From an uncultured Bacteroidales bacterium (GTDB lineage: Bacteria; Bacteroidota; Bacteroidia; Bacteroidales; UBA932): 64,000 bases of DNA. Positions 59,055 through 64,000 of this stretch are shown one piece after another. The number at the start of each line of letters is the position of its first letter. Within the stretch, counting starts at the first letter, position 1. Below the pieces are notes generated by a model that did not search any database, was not told the origin of the DNA, and was given only the letters and a program-made list of their open reading frames with translations. The translations under genes and the position numbers were made by a program. The stretch is taken from positions 1 to 64,000 of the forward strand of contig CASFGK010000008.1 in NCBI GenBank assembly GCA_949294195.1, given 5' to 3'.

Positions 59055-60557
59055 ATGGTAGAAAATGCACTGATTGACTGGTCAAGGGCCCAGTTCGCCC
59101 TTACGGCATGCTATCACTGGATATTCGTTCCGCTTACGTTGGGGCTGTCCGTCATCATGGCTGTCATGGAAAGTATCTACGTGGCCACGAAAGACGAATT
59201 CTGGAAAAGGACATCCAAATTCTGGATGAAGCTTTTTGCCGTCAATTTCGCTGTAGGTATCGCTACGGGAATCATTCTTGAGTTTGAGTTCGGTACCAAC
59301 TGGAGCAACTATTCCTGGTTCGTCGGTGACATATTCGGCGCACCTTTGGCGATTGAGGGGATTCTGGCTTTCTTCATGGAAGCGACTTTCTTCGCGGTGA
59401 TGTTCTTCGGATGGGACAAGGTCAGCAGGAAATTCCATCTTGCATCTACCTGGCTGACGTGTCTGGGCGCATCGGTCTCCGCTTTGTGGATACTTGTCGC
59501 CAATTCATGGATGCAGCATCCTGTCGGTATGGAATTCAATCCGGATACTGTCCGTAATGAAATGACGGATTTCTGGGCTGTAGCTCTCAATCCGGTTGCT
59601 GTCAGCAAGTTCTTCCATTCTGTCCTGAGCGGCTGGATGACAGGAGCCGTTTTTGTCATAGGAGTGAGCTGCTGGTATCTTATGAAGAAAAGGGAAGTGA
59701 AATTTGCGAAAGCCAGCATAAGGGTGGCCGCTATTGTCGGAATAACCGGCACTCTGGCCGTCATGTTTTCCGGAGACAGTTCCGCTGTCCATGTAGCCAA
59801 ATACCAGCCCATGAAGCTTGCGGCGGCAGAGGGCCTTGAAAACGGAGGAGAAAAAGCTCCGTTCTCGATTGTTCCGGGTGTTGAGATTCCGGGCATGCTT
59901 TCAATTCTTGCGACACATGACATCAACGGATTTGTTCCGGGCATAAATGATCTTCTTGAAGGATATACCGATCCGGAAGGCAATACGGTTCTTTCTGCAG
60001 AAGAGAAAATGGCACGGGGAGAGGCGGCTCTTGAAGCATTCAGGTCTTACCGTGAAAACAGGGATACGGATCCTCAGGCCGCAGCCGGGGCCCGGAAGGT
60101 ACTTGAAGAAAATGTCGATTATTTCGGATACGGATACATACAGGACAGGGAGGATCTTGTCCCTTCTGTAGGAATGGTGTATTGGCCTTTCAGGATAATG
60201 GTGGGGCTGGGATGCTTCCTGCTGCTTGTGATGGCAGTGGTTCTGTGGGCTGAATGGAAAGGCAGGATAGAGACACTCGCATGGCTTCATCGGGTGGCAT
60301 TGTTTTCCATTCCACTGGTGTATATAGCCGGACAGGCCGGATGGATCGTAGCGGAAGTCGGAAGGCAGCCGTGGGCCATACAGGACCTTCTTCCTGTCAA
60401 TGCCGCCATTTCCAGTCTGAGCGTCGGGTCAGTAAGGACTACATTTTTCGTCTTTGTGGCAGTATTCACTCTGTTTCTGGTTATTGAACTTCGCATTCTG
60501 TTCAGGGCCATAAGGAAGGGACCGGCGGTCGAAGAGCCGGAAGTATCGGAAAAATAA
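59055..60557 (+). CDS. cydA: Cytochrome bd ubiquinol oxidase subunit I
   Basis: CydA carries hemes b558, b595 and d and oxidises quinol with reduction of oxygen to water. The 500-residue protein has about nine membrane helices. Known heme ligands fit the His in TACYHWIFVPLTLG, the His in MKLAAAEGLE-adjacent segments and Met in the GRQPWAI region. It shows the Q-loop between helices 6 and 7 (GVEIPGMLSILATHDINGFVP). It works with cydB and DUF4492 and gives this anaerobe a high-affinity oxygen sink. Confidence 0.95.
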   Translation: MVENALIDWSRAQFALTACYHWIFVPLTLGLSVIMAVMESIYVATKDEFWKRTSKFWMKLFAVNFAVGIATGIILEFEFGTNWSNYSWFVGDIFGAPLAIEGILAFFMEATFFAVMFFGWDKVSRKFHLASTWLTCLGASVSALWILVANSWMQHPVGMEFNPDTVRNEMTDFWAVALNPVAVSKFFHSVLSGWMTGAVFVIGVSCWYLMKKREVKFAKASIRVAAIVGITGTLAVMFSGDSSAVHVAKYQPMKLAAAEGLENGGEKAPFSIVPGVEIPGMLSILATHDINGFVPGINDLLEGYTDPEGNTVLSAEEKMARGEAALEAFRSYRENRDTDPQAAAGARKVLEENVDYFGYGYIQDREDLVPSVGMVYWPFRIMVGLGCFLLLVMAVVLWAEWKGRIETLAWLHRVALFSIPLVYIAGQAGWIVAEVGRQPWAIQDLLPVNAAISSLSVGSVRTTFFVFVAVFTLFLVIELRILFRAIRKGPAVEEPEVSEK

Positions 60558-60572
60558 AAACAGGAGGCGGTT

Positions 60573-61718
60573 ATGTTTGAATATGGATTTATGCAGCAAT
60601 ACTGGTGGTTCATCGTTTCACTTCTGGGTGGATTGCTTGTATTTCTTCTGTTTGTGCAGGGTGGAAACGCATTGATATTTTCGGTCGGAAGGAGAGAGAA
60701 TGAAAGGGCCCTTATAGTCAATTCCACCGGTCGCAAGTGGGAGCTGACCTTTACTACGCTGGTAACATTCGGCGGGGCGTTCTTCGCATCGTTTCCGCTT
60801 TTCTACAGTACGAGTTTCGGCGGGGCCTATTGGCTCTGGGTGCTGATTCTCGTCAGTTTCGTATTCCAGGCGGTATCTTACGAATTCCAGACCAAGGCCG
60901 GCAACCTTCTCGGACGCAACACGTTCCGTGTCTTTCTGGTAATCAACGGATTCATGGGGCCTTTCCTTATCGGGACGGCCGTAGCTACGTTTTTTACAGG
61001 TTCCGATTTCATCATAGACAAGAACGCCGTCGGGGATTCACTTGCCCCGGTTATAAGTACATGGGGAAACGGATGGCACGGACTTGAAGCATTCGGCAAT
61101 ATATGGAATATCTGTCTCGGACTGGCGGTGTTTTTTCTGGCTCTTGTTCTCGGATCTCTGTATATAATAAACAATATTGATGACGAGAATATCGTTCTGA
61201 AACTGCGTCTTAGACTGTGGATGAGCGCTTTCTGTTTCCTTATCCTTTTCGTCGCCTTTGTCCTGCATATCTGCGTGGTGCCGGGTTTTGCCGTGGACGG
61301 GAACGGAACAGTCTTTATGGAAAAATCCAAGTATCTGCACAATTTCCTGCAGATGCCGGTTGTCCTGACCATTTTCCTTGCCGGTGTCGTGCTGGTACTT
61401 TATGGAATAGTGAAGACGCTGGCATCCAGGAAATACCGCAAGGGCATATGGTTTACGGGACCAGGCGTCGTGCTTGCTGTCCTCAGCCTGTTGCTTGTTG
61501 CCGGATACAACGGTACGGCGTATTACCCTTCTACGGCCGATTTGCAGAGTTCACTTACAATCGCCAACAGCTGTTCGAGCCGGTTTACGCTCAAGACCAT
61601 GACAATAGTATCGTTTATAATCCCGTTTGTCCTTGCCTATATTGCGTATGCATGGAGGGCCATGGACCGCAAGCCGCTGACAACGGATGAGCTGGAAAAC
61701 ACGACAGACAAATATTAG
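60573..61718 (+). CDS. cydB: Cytochrome bd ubiquinol oxidase subunit II
   Basis: CydB is the second large membrane subunit of cytochrome bd. The 381-residue protein has about eight membrane helices and family segments WFIVSLLGGLLVFLLFVQGG, NGFMGPFLIG and TWGNGWHGLEAF. It follows cydA with a 15-nt gap. A full AGGAGG sequence lies 8 nt before its ATG; strong Shine-Dalgarno motifs are rare in Bacteroidetes, so it stands out. Confidence 0.95.
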   Translation: MFEYGFMQQYWWFIVSLLGGLLVFLLFVQGGNALIFSVGRRENERALIVNSTGRKWELTFTTLVTFGGAFFASFPLFYSTSFGGAYWLWVLILVSFVFQAVSYEFQTKAGNLLGRNTFRVFLVINGFMGPFLIGTAVATFFTGSDFIIDKNAVGDSLAPVISTWGNGWHGLEAFGNIWNICLGLAVFFLALVLGSLYIINNIDDENIVLKLRLRLWMSAFCFLILFVAFVLHICVVPGFAVDGNGTVFMEKSKYLHNFLQMPVVLTIFLAGVVLVLYGIVKTLASRKYRKGIWFTGPGVVLAVLSLLLVAGYNGTAYYPSTADLQSSLTIANSCSSRFTLKTMTIVSFIIPFVLAYIAYAWRAMDRKPLTTDELENTTDKY

Positions 61719-61738
61719 ACTTGATAAAATATTGGGAA

Positions 61739-62581
61739 ATGAAAAAGATCGCTTTATTTTTACTGGCAGCCCTGTCAATTCTTCCACAGGCAGTATCCGC
61801 CAGGAAAGTTGCAGAGCCTGCAACTCTTGATGTAATATCGTTCAACATCAGAATGGGAGAGGGCAAGGACGGGACCAATTCATGGCAGTTCAGGTGTCCT
61901 GCAACAATCCTTATGCTCCGAGACAAGCAGCCTGATATTTTCGGTCTTCAGGAAGCATATGATTACCAGGTGCAGTTCATTGAGGAGAACATGCCTGATT
62001 ACAAGAGCATCGGTGTCGGACGCGAAGACGGAAGACATGAGGGGGAGCATATGTCCATTTTCTATAACAAGAAGACGATATCTCTTCTGAAATGGGGTAC
62101 TTTCTGGCTTTCCGAGACTCCGGAGGAGCCTTCCATGGGATGGGATGCAGCCTGCTTCAGGACAGCTACATGGGCTCTTATGAAAGACAAGCGGTCTGGA
62201 CAAAGGTTCTATTATGTCAATACGCATCTGGACCATGTGGGCAAGGAAGCCCAGAAAAACGGTCTGGCCCTGATAGTGGAAAGAATCAGGGAGATCAATC
62301 CTGACCATCTTCCGATGGTGCTGACCGGCGATTTCAATGTCGAGCCGGACGATTCCGTTCTCGATGATTTGGACAATATGATGAAAAGCGCAAGGAAATC
62401 AGCCGAACGGACGGATAACCTGAATTCTTACAACGGATGGGGTAAAAGCAGTTCAGTCATAGACTACATTTACTATTCGGGATTCTCATCCTGCCCAAAA
62501 TTCGAGACGGTTCAGAAGAAATATGCCGATTTCCCGTTTATTTCCGATCACTATCCGGTCATGGCGACCTTGATTTTCTGA
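61739..62581 (+). CDS. Secreted endonuclease/exonuclease/phosphatase family protein
   Basis: The 280-residue protein has a signal peptide (cut near AVSA) and the EEP motifs ISFNIRMGEG, IFGLQEAYDYQ, VNTHLDHVG, LTGDFNVEPDD and the terminal ISDHYPV. Catalytic residues Asn, Glu, Asp and His are all in place. It follows cydB by 20 nt and is probably in the same transcript, but a link to respiration is not evident. It differs from the paralogue at 16339 in length and detail. Confidence 0.88.
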   Translation: MKKIALFLLAALSILPQAVSARKVAEPATLDVISFNIRMGEGKDGTNSWQFRCPATILMLRDKQPDIFGLQEAYDYQVQFIEENMPDYKSIGVGREDGRHEGEHMSIFYNKKTISLLKWGTFWLSETPEEPSMGWDAACFRTATWALMKDKRSGQRFYYVNTHLDHVGKEAQKNGLALIVERIREINPDHLPMVLTGDFNVEPDDSVLDDLDNMMKSARKSAERTDNLNSYNGWGKSSSVIDYIYYSGFSSCPKFETVQKKYADFPFISDHYPVMATLIF

Positions 62582-62621: not shown

Positions 62622-64000
62622 ATGTCCAGATCAGGAAACAGAAAGAAAATACTTTTGGCAATACTTGCCGGACTGGTCCTCGGTTTTACGCTGATGGTGG
62701 TGCTCAATTCGTTTTATGTGAAGAGCTCTTCAAATGAAGCGTGCATGTCATGCCACTATCATCCGGAATCCGATGCAAGCTGGAAACAGTCAGTACATTA
62801 TAACAACGGCAGCGGGGTCAAGACCGACTGCGCGGACTGCCATCTTCCACCGGAAGGGACTGCAGGGCATTTCATCGCCAAGGCAAAGACAGGAATGAAA
62901 GACGTCTGGTCGTATATCACCAAGGACAAGGAAGAGATAGACTGGGACAGCAAGGGACAGCTGGAGTATGCTGTAAACATAGTATACAACGAGTCATGTA
63001 CAGAATGTCATGTGAACCTTTTTCCGGAGGGCATCACGGACGACGGGGTGACTGCGCATCTTTATTATGAAGACAATGTAGAGAAACTTGACCTTCAGTG
63101 CATCAGCTGTCATCTCGATGCCGGGCACTACAATCCGAACTACCAGCATACCCGGATGACAGGCCTGCCCGGGCCTGTAAGCACGGAAGTATATTCGGAA
63201 GCTGCGGAAGTGACCGTTTTCGGGGACTATACTGAAACGGTCCCGGGAACATCGGCTTCAATCAGAATGATAGCTGTTCCGGGCGGGACATTTATCATGG
63301 GAAGTCCGGAAAACGAACCGTTCCGAAGAAGTGACGAATCTCCTCAGCGCCAGGTCACCGTATCTTCGTTTTTCATGGGAGAGACAGAGGTGACATGGGA
63401 CCAGTTCTGGGCATTTTACGGAGAGACTATGTCCGAAGGCCGGATTCCGCCTGAGGTAGTGTACGCCAACAATTCCAGGGAAGATATCGATGCTGTCAGC
63501 GGACCTACTCCTCCGTTCGGGTATCCGGACCAGGGCTGGGGAATGGCTGACAGACCTGTGATAACTCTGACTCACTATTGTGCGGAAACATTCTGCCAGT
63601 GGCTGTCCATGAAGACAGGGAAAAAGTACCGTCTGCCTACCGAGGCGGAGTGGGAATATGCCGCCCGCGGAGGGACATCTACACCTTATTTCTTCGAAGG
63701 CAGCCCGAGGAAGTATACGAACCGCGGCCTGTGGCGCGGAATATTCGGTGCTGACACATCTGTCATAAACAGTTATGCTGTATACGCGGACAACAGCAGA
63801 AGCAGGACCAAGGAGCCGTCTGAAGTGAAGGCCAATCCGTTCGGTTTGAAGAACATGCTGGGCAATGTAATGGAGTACTGTTCTGACTGGTATGCGGAGG
63901 ATGCCTATTCCAGGCTTCAGGACGGAGCCGTGAATCCTAAAGGGCCCGCTACGGGGACGGAACATGTGGTAAGGGGCGGTTTCTACAACGACGATGCCGC
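62622..64000 (+). CDS. NapC/NirT-type tetraheme cytochrome fused to a SUMF1 domain (3' end beyond window)
   Basis: The frame is open from ATG 62622 to the window end (459 codons). A membrane helix (residues 11-29) anchors a tetraheme module with CMSCH (41-45), CADCH (70-74), CTECH (126-130) and CISCH (160-164). The order and spacing match NrfH/NapC quinol dehydrogenases. From about residue 213 a SUMF1/FGE-like domain begins: IAVPGGTFIMGSPENE, GETEVTWDQFWAF, RLPTEAEWEYAARGG, GNVMEYCSDWY and VVRGGFYND. The cytochrome would draw electrons from the quinol pool. The SUMF1 domain would then act in the periplasm. It lies 40 nt after the EEP gene and may share the cydAB transcript. Confidence 0.85.
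   Translation, partial: MSRSGNRKKILLAILAGLVLGFTLMVVLNSFYVKSSSNEACMSCHYHPESDASWKQSVHYNNGSGVKTDCADCHLPPEGTAGHFIAKAKTGMKDVWSYITKDKEEIDWDSKGQLEYAVNIVYNESCTECHVNLFPEGITDDGVTAHLYYEDNVEKLDLQCISCHLDAGHYNPNYQHTRMTGLPGPVSTEVYSEAAEVTVFGDYTETVPGTSASIRMIAVPGGTFIMGSPENEPFRRSDESPQRQVTVSSFFMGETEVTWDQFWAFYGETMSEGRIPPEVVYANNSREDIDAVSGPTPPFGYPDQGWGMADRPVITLTHYCAETFCQWLSMKTGKKYRLPTEAEWEYAARGGTSTPYFFEGSPRKYTNRGLWRGIFGADTSVINSYAVYADNSRSRTKEPSEVKANPFGLKNMLGNVMEYCSDWYAEDAYSRLQDGAVNPKGPATGTEHVVRGGFYNDDA

Follow-up and report, generated by a model that had tools for sequence, protein, structure and literature searches.

A tetraheme–SUMF1 fusion of Bacteroidales and its constant Gfo/Idh/MocA neighbour: a possible menaquinone-linked electron conduit

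INTRODUCTION

What does a membrane-anchored tetraheme cytochrome do when a SUMF1 domain is attached to it, and with which partner would it exchange electrons? The question is raised by the last gene of the window, the whole 64 000-nt stretch of DNA analysed here, which corresponds to positions 1–64000 of contig C8 in a 2.16-Mb genome that is 88.57% complete. A sequence-only reading of the window had proposed that the gene encodes a redox-linked SUMF1-type domain that is fed, or sensed, by the quinone pool next to cytochrome bd, with a scaffold role as the main alternative. Here, we examine the fusion gene (FUS) together with three genes downstream of it that encode a Gfo/Idh/MocA protein (GFO), a TIM-barrel sugar epimerase-like protein (APE), and a ResB-CcsA fusion (CcsBA).

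RESULTS

Anatomy and authenticity of the fusion

FUS is read as a single ATG frame that starts at position 62622 and is open to the window edge; the parent contig supplies the remainder, with the stop codon at 64152–64154 (Table 1). The full-length protein contains in one frame all elements reported by the sequence-only reading, namely a membrane anchor, four CxxCH sites, and the SUMF1 motifs. In particular, the N-terminal part, with its single helix and four CxxCH sites, belongs to the NapC/NirT-NrfH family (PF03264, Cytochrom_NNT, 93.5 bits, cut-off 24.1), and the C-terminal part matches PF03781 (FGE-sulfatase, 144.2 bits, cut-off 23.3). FUS is the sole PF03781 match and the sole PF03264 match found in the 88.57% complete genome. 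A structure model, built without heme, has a mean pLDDT of 78.1 and is weak at residues 271–277, 288–305, and 478–490.

Table 1. Positions of FUS, its domains and motifs, and the neighbouring genes (window coordinates, except where contig coordinates are indicated)
Feature	Position	Strand	Basis
cydA and cydB	59055..61718	+	Pfam; local neighbours
Exo/endonuclease/phosphatase-family gene, 40 bp before FUS	61721..62581	+	Pfam; local neighbour
FUS, fusion gene, 510 aa	62622..64000, ends contig 64154	+	ORF reading, parent contig
N-terminal membrane helix, residues 7–34	62640..62723	+	predicted model; hydrophobic sequence
NapC/NrfH-family tetraheme domain PF03264, residues 7–173	62640..63140	+	Pfam
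Heme 1 motif CxxCHxH, C41–H47 (CxxCH, residues 41–45); His47 at NrfH ligand Met position	62742..62762	+	alignment
Heme 2 motif CxxCH, C70–H74	62829..62843	+	alignment
Lys87 and Asp94, aligned with NrfH Lys82 and Asp89 (menaquinol site)	62880..62903	+	alignment
Heme 3 motif CxxCH, C126–H130	62997..63011	+	alignment
Heme 4 motif CxxCH, C160–H164	63099..63113	+	alignment
SUMF1/FGE-fold domain PF03781, residues 216–472	63267..64000, on to 64037	+	Pfam, Foldseek
GFO, Gfo/Idh/MocA protein, Tat-like and lipobox-like signal, 450 aa	contig 64195–65547	+	ORF, Pfam
APE, TIM-barrel sugar epimerase-like protein, 303 aa	contig 65555–66466	+	ORF, Pfam
CcsBA, ResB-CcsA fusion, 575 aa	contig 66444–68171	+	ORF, Pfam

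The fusion of the two domains is genuine: a single open reading frame spans >85% of FUS in all 93 loci examined, ruling out the frameshift or assembly join that the sequence-only reading had allowed for. The 93 loci comprise the window locus, 12 loci from a search for relatives, and the best 80 of 297 relatives from a contig scan; some possibly represent the same genome in two collections, and a 90% identity filter leaves 64 sequences. A seemingly split form of FUS in genome G660 was rejected, as both pieces stop at contig edges.

With a fusion model (E ≤ 1e-60), FUS is recovered from 51 of the 393 genomes sampled from the order; in one of them (G795) the match is a fragment at the beginning of a contig. 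Among the holders with names are Phocaeicola abscessus, Alistipes sp. dk3624, and several Cryptobacteroides MAGs. In a sample of 395 genomes of the phylum, the fusion is present in 3, and the SUMF1 part alone is present in 29, in open frames of 317–427 aa. In a tree of SUMF1 domains, the fusions form one clade (29 rows, support 100/99) and the stand-alone proteins another (27 rows, 96/99), and the two clades are joined, to the exclusion of 17 other SUMF1 rows, at only 89/58. Since the fusions form one clade, FUS looks like the product of one fusion event, in a tree whose root is not fixed.

GFO is the constant neighbour of FUS

In the window genome, GFO starts 40 bp downstream of FUS, and CcsBA overlaps APE. 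Among the 66 of the 93 loci that extend at least 4.5 kb downstream (the other 27 are too short and were left out of this count), GFO and APE are each present in 66, and CcsBA is present in 51 by ORF search and in 52 by tblastn. Over all loci, GFO is seen in 92 of 93, the single miss having 11 bases left. In 17 deeper-branching loci, GFO adjoins FUS in 15 (of the other two, L172 breaks off at a contig edge and L177 shows no GFO in the stretch read), an APE-like gene is present in 7 (once on the other strand), and CcsBA is present in none; a second Gfo/Idh gene comes after GFO in four of these loci (L175, L178, L183, L184). Because GFO is kept in the deeper loci, where APE is found in 7/17 and CcsBA in 0/17, FUS and GFO constitute the constant core, APE and CcsBA characterize the nearer clade, and neither of the latter is essential to the gene set. 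CcsBA was rejected as a fixed member on the same counts (52/66 nearer versus 0/17 deeper loci). The search for the two-domain architecture and its neighbours that the sequence-only reading had recommended thus found 51 of 393 genomes of the order and one constant neighbour, GFO.

The cytochrome bd neighbourhood noticed by the sequence-only reading is real at this locus but is not general: of the 65 loci that extend 4 kb or more upstream of FUS, 7 have cydA, cydB, and the phosphatase-family gene on that side, and cytochrome bd was therefore rejected as a functional link to FUS. CcsBA combines ResB and CcsA domains in one protein, the composition of a System II cytochrome c synthase (PF05140, 44.6 bits; PF01578, 90.8 bits) and scores 88.8 bits against the CcsB equivalog TIGR03144, below its cut-off of 187.6. 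The genome has a second PF01578 (CcsA-type) gene at G000:C7:12913-13512, within a 727-aa frame, so the CcsBA of the FUS row is not the only one.

GFO also co-occurs with FUS at the level of genomes. In the order sample, GFO (E ≤ 1e-90) is present in 51 of 51 FUS genomes and in 1 of 342 others (Fisher p 1.2e-63, a value uncorrected for relatedness and operon linkage, both of which inflate it). GFO copies outnumber FUS copies in 14 of the 51 FUS genomes, with at least 24 extra copies in all (up to four candidates scored per genome; G660 counted as having two FUS), and in G517 and G617 the extra copy adjoins FUS itself. To view the surroundings, 20 stretches were fetched, most around extra GFO copies and one (L235) from G588, the sole genome of the 342 that lacks the fusion yet has a close GFO, and ten neighbours were scanned. 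Several extra copies sit in glycan-type loci. Specifically, the neighbours include TIM barrels (L221, L236), a sulfatase (L222), an alpha-L-fucosidase (L230), an FGGY kinase (L223), and a DUF1080-like gene recognized by BLAST only (L229), together with neighbours of other kinds, namely a peptidase (L217), an OmpA protein (L226), and a family-less protein (L228). One extra copy has a nine-CxxCH protein and a GMC oxidoreductase as neighbours (L219:5002-9233), which makes this locus another candidate for heme-linked sugar oxidation.

SUMF1 pairs with GFO in the absence of hemes

Loci were obtained for 27 of the 29 stand-alone SUMF1 relatives outside the order, with 1.5-kb flanks in the first pass. 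A GFO relative is located directly downstream, on the same strand, in 22 of the 27; in the other five, GFO is divergent in one and is absent within 1.5 kb in four. Wider stretches of L146, L147, L149, and L156 have no close GFO, and in these cases GFO is found elsewhere in the genome. In a control with other SUMF1 loci of the order (flanks of up to 1.5 kb), a GFO relative is present in 0/17. In a tree with 12 other Gfo/Idh proteins of the same stretches, some of which are long-branched, the linked GFOs cluster together with support of 100/100. Each of the 32 genomes of the phylum sample that give a SUMF1 hit also has GFO (E ≤ 1e-60), and 32 of the 64 genomes with GFO have no SUMF1 hit at the threshold used; phylum-wide, SUMF1 accompanies GFO more strictly than GFO accompanies SUMF1. 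We conclude that the SUMF1 domain belongs with GFO and that the heme-free pairing is the older one.

In 18 stand-alone loci inspected over ~9 kb on each side, GMC and Gluconate_2-dh3-type genes are present in 5 and ApbE-type flavin transferase genes in 5 (L147, L150, L151, L159, L160); these assignments come from Pfam runs on examples and, for the remainder, from BLAST clusters, with three of the ApbE genes checked by Pfam. The ApbE-type gene directly follows GFO in L151, L159, and L160, and no flavinylation target was matched nearby in any of the five. In another locus, a Tll0287-like protein with one CxxCH (L162:8507-9250) is encoded directly upstream of a stand-alone SUMF1–GFO–APE-like set.

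The heme domain retains the Lys/Asp pair of NrfH but not the heme-1 methionine

Nine NrfH-like proteins of the order, each followed by an ORF with four CxxCH that is NrfA-like by motifs alone, served as the comparison for the 64 fusions. FUS resembles NrfH in having one N-terminal helix, four CxxCH hemes (invariant in 64/64), and equivalents of Lys82 and Asp89; it differs in falling below the TIGR03153 equivalog cut-off (68.9 versus 134.2 bits), in the heme-1 ligand position, in additional histidines, and in the fused SUMF1 domain. In particular, heme 1 reads CxxCHxH in 64/64 fusions, with His at the position occupied by Met in 9/9 NrfH-like proteins, and His146 and His176 are invariant in the fusions and not shared by the nine. 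The Lys82 position has Lys in 64/64 fusions and in 9/9 NrfH-like proteins, and the Asp89 position has Asp in 63/64 fusions and His in 9/9 NrfH-like proteins, upholding the NapC/NrfH-family character that had been assigned to FUS.

In NrfH, Met49 and Asp89 are essential for menaquinol oxidation (PMC10654088, excerpt), and Lys82 and Asp89 are conserved (PMC4683180, excerpt). The kept Lys/Asp pair speaks for a quinone site in FUS, with the Asp being weak evidence, because the order's own NrfH-like proteins lack it; the lost heme-1 Met speaks against ordinary quinol oxidation. The His at heme 1 may perhaps yield a lower-potential heme suited to reducing menaquinone. The extra histidines of FUS could, we assume, replace the ligand that NrfA supplies in NrfHA. 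NrfA itself was rejected as a partner, the genome (88.57% complete) having no PF02335 match.

Two other kinds of multiheme protein were encountered. Loci L210–L215 encode multiheme proteins of 332–574 aa that seemingly have several membrane segments; their similarity to PF03264 is mainly to its first half, and they look like a separate family in the order. In addition, a relative of the same order encodes a protein with 34 CxxCH (L207:484-3021).

The SUMF1 domain lacks the catalytic cysteines of FGE

Foldseek places FGE and PvdO at the top for the SUMF1 domain of FUS (E 9.0e-17 for human FGE), and the SUMF1 motifs of FUS align with those of FGE. In human FGE, the catalytic residues are Cys336 and Cys341. 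A Cys in the corresponding loop is present in 0 of 63 parsable fusions (one of the 64 could not be parsed), 41 of the 63 have an acidic pair at this position, and the loop has a Cys in 1 of 19 parsable stand-alone SUMF1 proteins. The search for catalytic cysteines that had been suggested therefore speaks against the formylglycine-type redox enzyme of the sequence-only reading: FUS, judged from its sequence, is not a formylglycine-type enzyme, and its SUMF1 domain is associated instead with a Gfo/Idh/MocA dehydrogenase. That the domain is tied to the quinone pool is plausible.

Three cysteines, C325, C420, and C501, do not vary among 93 sequences. Judging from their positions, C325 and C501 presumably correspond to the structural disulfide of FGE; C420 (63879–63881), also invariant in 93/93, is the lone Cys of the GNVMEYCSDWY motif.

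PvdO, listed by NCBIfam as a dihydropyoverdine dehydrogenase, has the fold in common with the SUMF1 domain, and FUS scores 83.1 bits against the PvdO equivalog NF051459, with a cut-off of 500. The top NCBIfam score of FUS is to GldK (TIGR03525, 105.1 bits), below the equivalog cut-off of 350. GldK/PorK and GldJ are SUMF1-like lipoproteins of Bacteroidota, from which FUS differs by its membrane tetraheme part; the T9SS ring contains GldK-like SUMF1 proteins as components.

Relatives and export-type signals of GFO and APE

GFO scores above the cut-offs for the Gfo/Idh/MocA families (PF01408, 47 bits; PF22725, 42.6 bits; PF02894, 26.5 bits). By sequence, it has weak matches to inositol dehydrogenases, a glucuronide-3-dehydrogenase, and sugar 3-ketoreductases; by fold (model pLDDT 88.5), it is close to inositol dehydrogenases, aldose-aldose oxidoreductase, glucose-fructose oxidoreductase, GH109, and NAD-dependent glycosidases. 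A Tat-like Arg and Phe and the lipobox-position Cys are invariant in 48/48 aligned GFOs; by pattern, SR[RK]xF is found in 54 of 88 GFOs and a lipobox in 85 of 88. For APE, the corresponding counts are 45 of 75 (RRxF) and 69 of 75 (lipobox). Tat export of GFO would fit an enzyme that is already folded and carries its NAD when it leaves the cytoplasm.

The best solved relative of APE is a putative sugar isomerase (3kws, 411.8 bits), followed by the 3-keto-D-glucoside 4-epimerase YcjR (6wn6, 82.3 bits, E 3.5e-22). YcjR belongs to a cytosolic gene set and thus differs from APE, which bears an export-type signal and has 3kws as its closest solved relative. On this similarity, APE is a putative 3-keto-glycoside epimerase of YcjR type.

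Exported Gfo/Idh dehydrogenases are the starting enzymes of 3-ketoglycoside pathways in gut bacteria, and BT2158 is a periplasmic glycoside 3-dehydrogenase (PMC11300592, excerpt); the DUF1080 protein BT2157 is a hydrolase of 3-ketotrehalose, and a similar activity has been proposed for others (PMC9007349, excerpt). The excerpts of these two papers name no SUMF1 or tetraheme partner for such pathways. The known periplasmic pathways, BT2158/BT2157 in Bacteroides and LacABC with DUF1080 in Caulobacter and some Bacteroidota, resemble the FUS gene set in having an exported Gfo/Idh, and the likeness extends to the 3-keto-disaccharide hydrolase genes (PF06439) of three of the 17 deeper fusion loci (L144, L180, L181) and to the GMC and Gluconate_2-dh3-type genes of the stand-alone loci (5/18). 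They differ in that GFO, with 17.2 bits against the BT_2158 glycoside 3-dehydrogenase model NF058561 (equivalog cut-off 750), is not a member of that family, and in that the constant partner here is a Gfo/Idh protein, the Lac enzyme being of GMC type.

DISCUSSION

FUS sits beside an enzyme that, from its signals and relatives, would be an exported sugar-oxidizing enzyme, so FUS probably carries electrons between periplasmic sugar chemistry and the respiratory pool. Specifically, we propose that FUS is an electron conduit that links exported Gfo/Idh dehydrogenases of the 3-keto-glycoside type to menaquinone, its SUMF1 domain serving as the docking site; we give this reading an even chance. GFO would bind NAD(H), presumably before Tat export, would be lipid-anchored, and would dock onto the cysteine-free SUMF1 fold of a membrane-anchored tetraheme protein whose partner is GFO rather than NrfA. 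In the periplasm it would oxidize a glycoside at a ring hydroxyl, giving a 3-keto-type intermediate, which APE, in the nearer clade, would then epimerize. Electrons would be exchanged between GFO and the four hemes and, beyond these, with menaquinone, most likely flowing from sugar to quinone, and CcsBA, where present in the row, would attach the hemes. In genomes with several GFO copies, one FUS may serve all of them. In its broadest form, the proposal makes FUS a respiratory hub that draws electrons through its SUMF1 adaptor from several Tat-exported Gfo/Idh enzymes, some in other glycan loci, into menaquinone; we put this form forward tentatively and consider it somewhat unlikely.

The weak point of the conduit reading is its chemistry. 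A two-electron hydride carrier would have to be coupled to one-electron hemes, and a search for a flavin or other two-to-one electron converter found none in FUS or GFO, with [ST]GA[ST] present in 2/64 FUS and 12/48 GFO sequences. A covalent flavin made by ApbE was rejected as the converter, the flavinylation motif being unconserved in FUS and GFO and a stricter pattern being unmatched in the ApbE loci. Further points count against the conduit: the stand-alone SUMF1–GFO pairs have no attached hemes, half of the GFO genomes of the phylum sample have no SUMF1 hit, the Met reported to be essential is lost, GFO scores far below the BT_2158 cut-off, and L177 is without GFO in the stretch read. Moreover, Gfo/Idh enzymes such as glucose-fructose oxidoreductase and the NAD-dependent glycosidases turn NAD(H) over within the enzyme and work without an electron partner, and the resemblance of GFO to them in fold counts against the need for one.

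The last point underlies the main rival, in which GFO is redox-neutral and recycles NAD(H) in its active site, the SUMF1 domain holds GFO at the inner membrane, and the hemes serve another periplasmic acceptor or donor. The fold neighbours of GFO, the heme-free SUMF1–GFO pairs, and the best NCBIfam score of FUS, to GldK, whose relatives have a structural role in the T9SS ring, all favour such an anchor or scaffold. Yet most GFOs and APEs have lipobox-like signals of their own, which seems to leave no need for a tetraheme anchor, and none of the 64 fusions lacks Lys87 or any of the four hemes; we regard this main rival as rather unlikely. Electrons could also flow the other way, with menaquinol reducing, via FUS, a keto sugar in the periplasm or some other substrate that SUMF1 or GFO binds, as in a respiratory reductase of an anaerobe. 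Known NapC/NrfH proteins oxidize quinol (PMC12285233, excerpt), and the Lys82 and Asp89 equivalents are kept; however, the Met essential for menaquinol oxidation in NrfH (PMC10654088, excerpt) is His in every fusion, and related gene sets elsewhere serve catabolic glycoside oxidation (PMC9007349, excerpt), which makes the reverse direction improbable.

Two further readings fare worse. That the SUMF1 domain is itself a redox enzyme of FGE, PvdO, or EgtB type, fed or sensed through the hemes, agrees with its fold matches, with the dehydrogenase annotation of PvdO, and with the three invariant cysteines, but the FGE loop is devoid of Cys in 63/63 parsable fusions, the PvdO score is far below its cut-off, and the domain travels with GFO, so that we hold this reading to be quite improbable. 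Least probable, to a degree that we would call slight, is coincidence, with FUS having an unrelated respiratory function and GFO being merely co-transcribed. A direct interaction of FUS and GFO is hypothetical, and the entire gene set is missing from many genomes closely related to these; against coincidence stand the linkage of GFO in 66/66 nearer and 15/17 deeper loci, the order-wide co-occurrence, the heme-free SUMF1–GFO pairing, and the extra GFO copies in 14 FUS genomes compared with one copy in 342 others.

The component families of the conduit reading are known; their combination, the heme-1 change, and the Gfo/Idh partner were not found described in the open-licence literature. Specifically, no paper on SUMF1 with NapC and cytochrome c, on SUMF1/MocA/tetraheme in Bacteroidetes, or on an FGE-sulfatase–cytochrome/NrfH fusion is among the open-licence matches listed. 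The terms MocA, GFO, SUMF1, and NapC are absent from the main texts of two flavinylation papers, and a term search of PMC8238504 gave no match.

The conserved FUS–GFO pair would tie a sugar dehydrogenase to a quinone-type tetraheme cytochrome and would so make the fate of the reducing equivalents of exported Gfo/Idh enzymes testable. If the conduit reading is true, one group of cysteine-free SUMF1 proteins would acquire a concrete role. If the hub form is also true, anaerobic Bacteroidales would couple glycan breakdown directly to respiration in the periplasm, and the SUMF1 domain would gain a new function, as a docking module for electron transfer.
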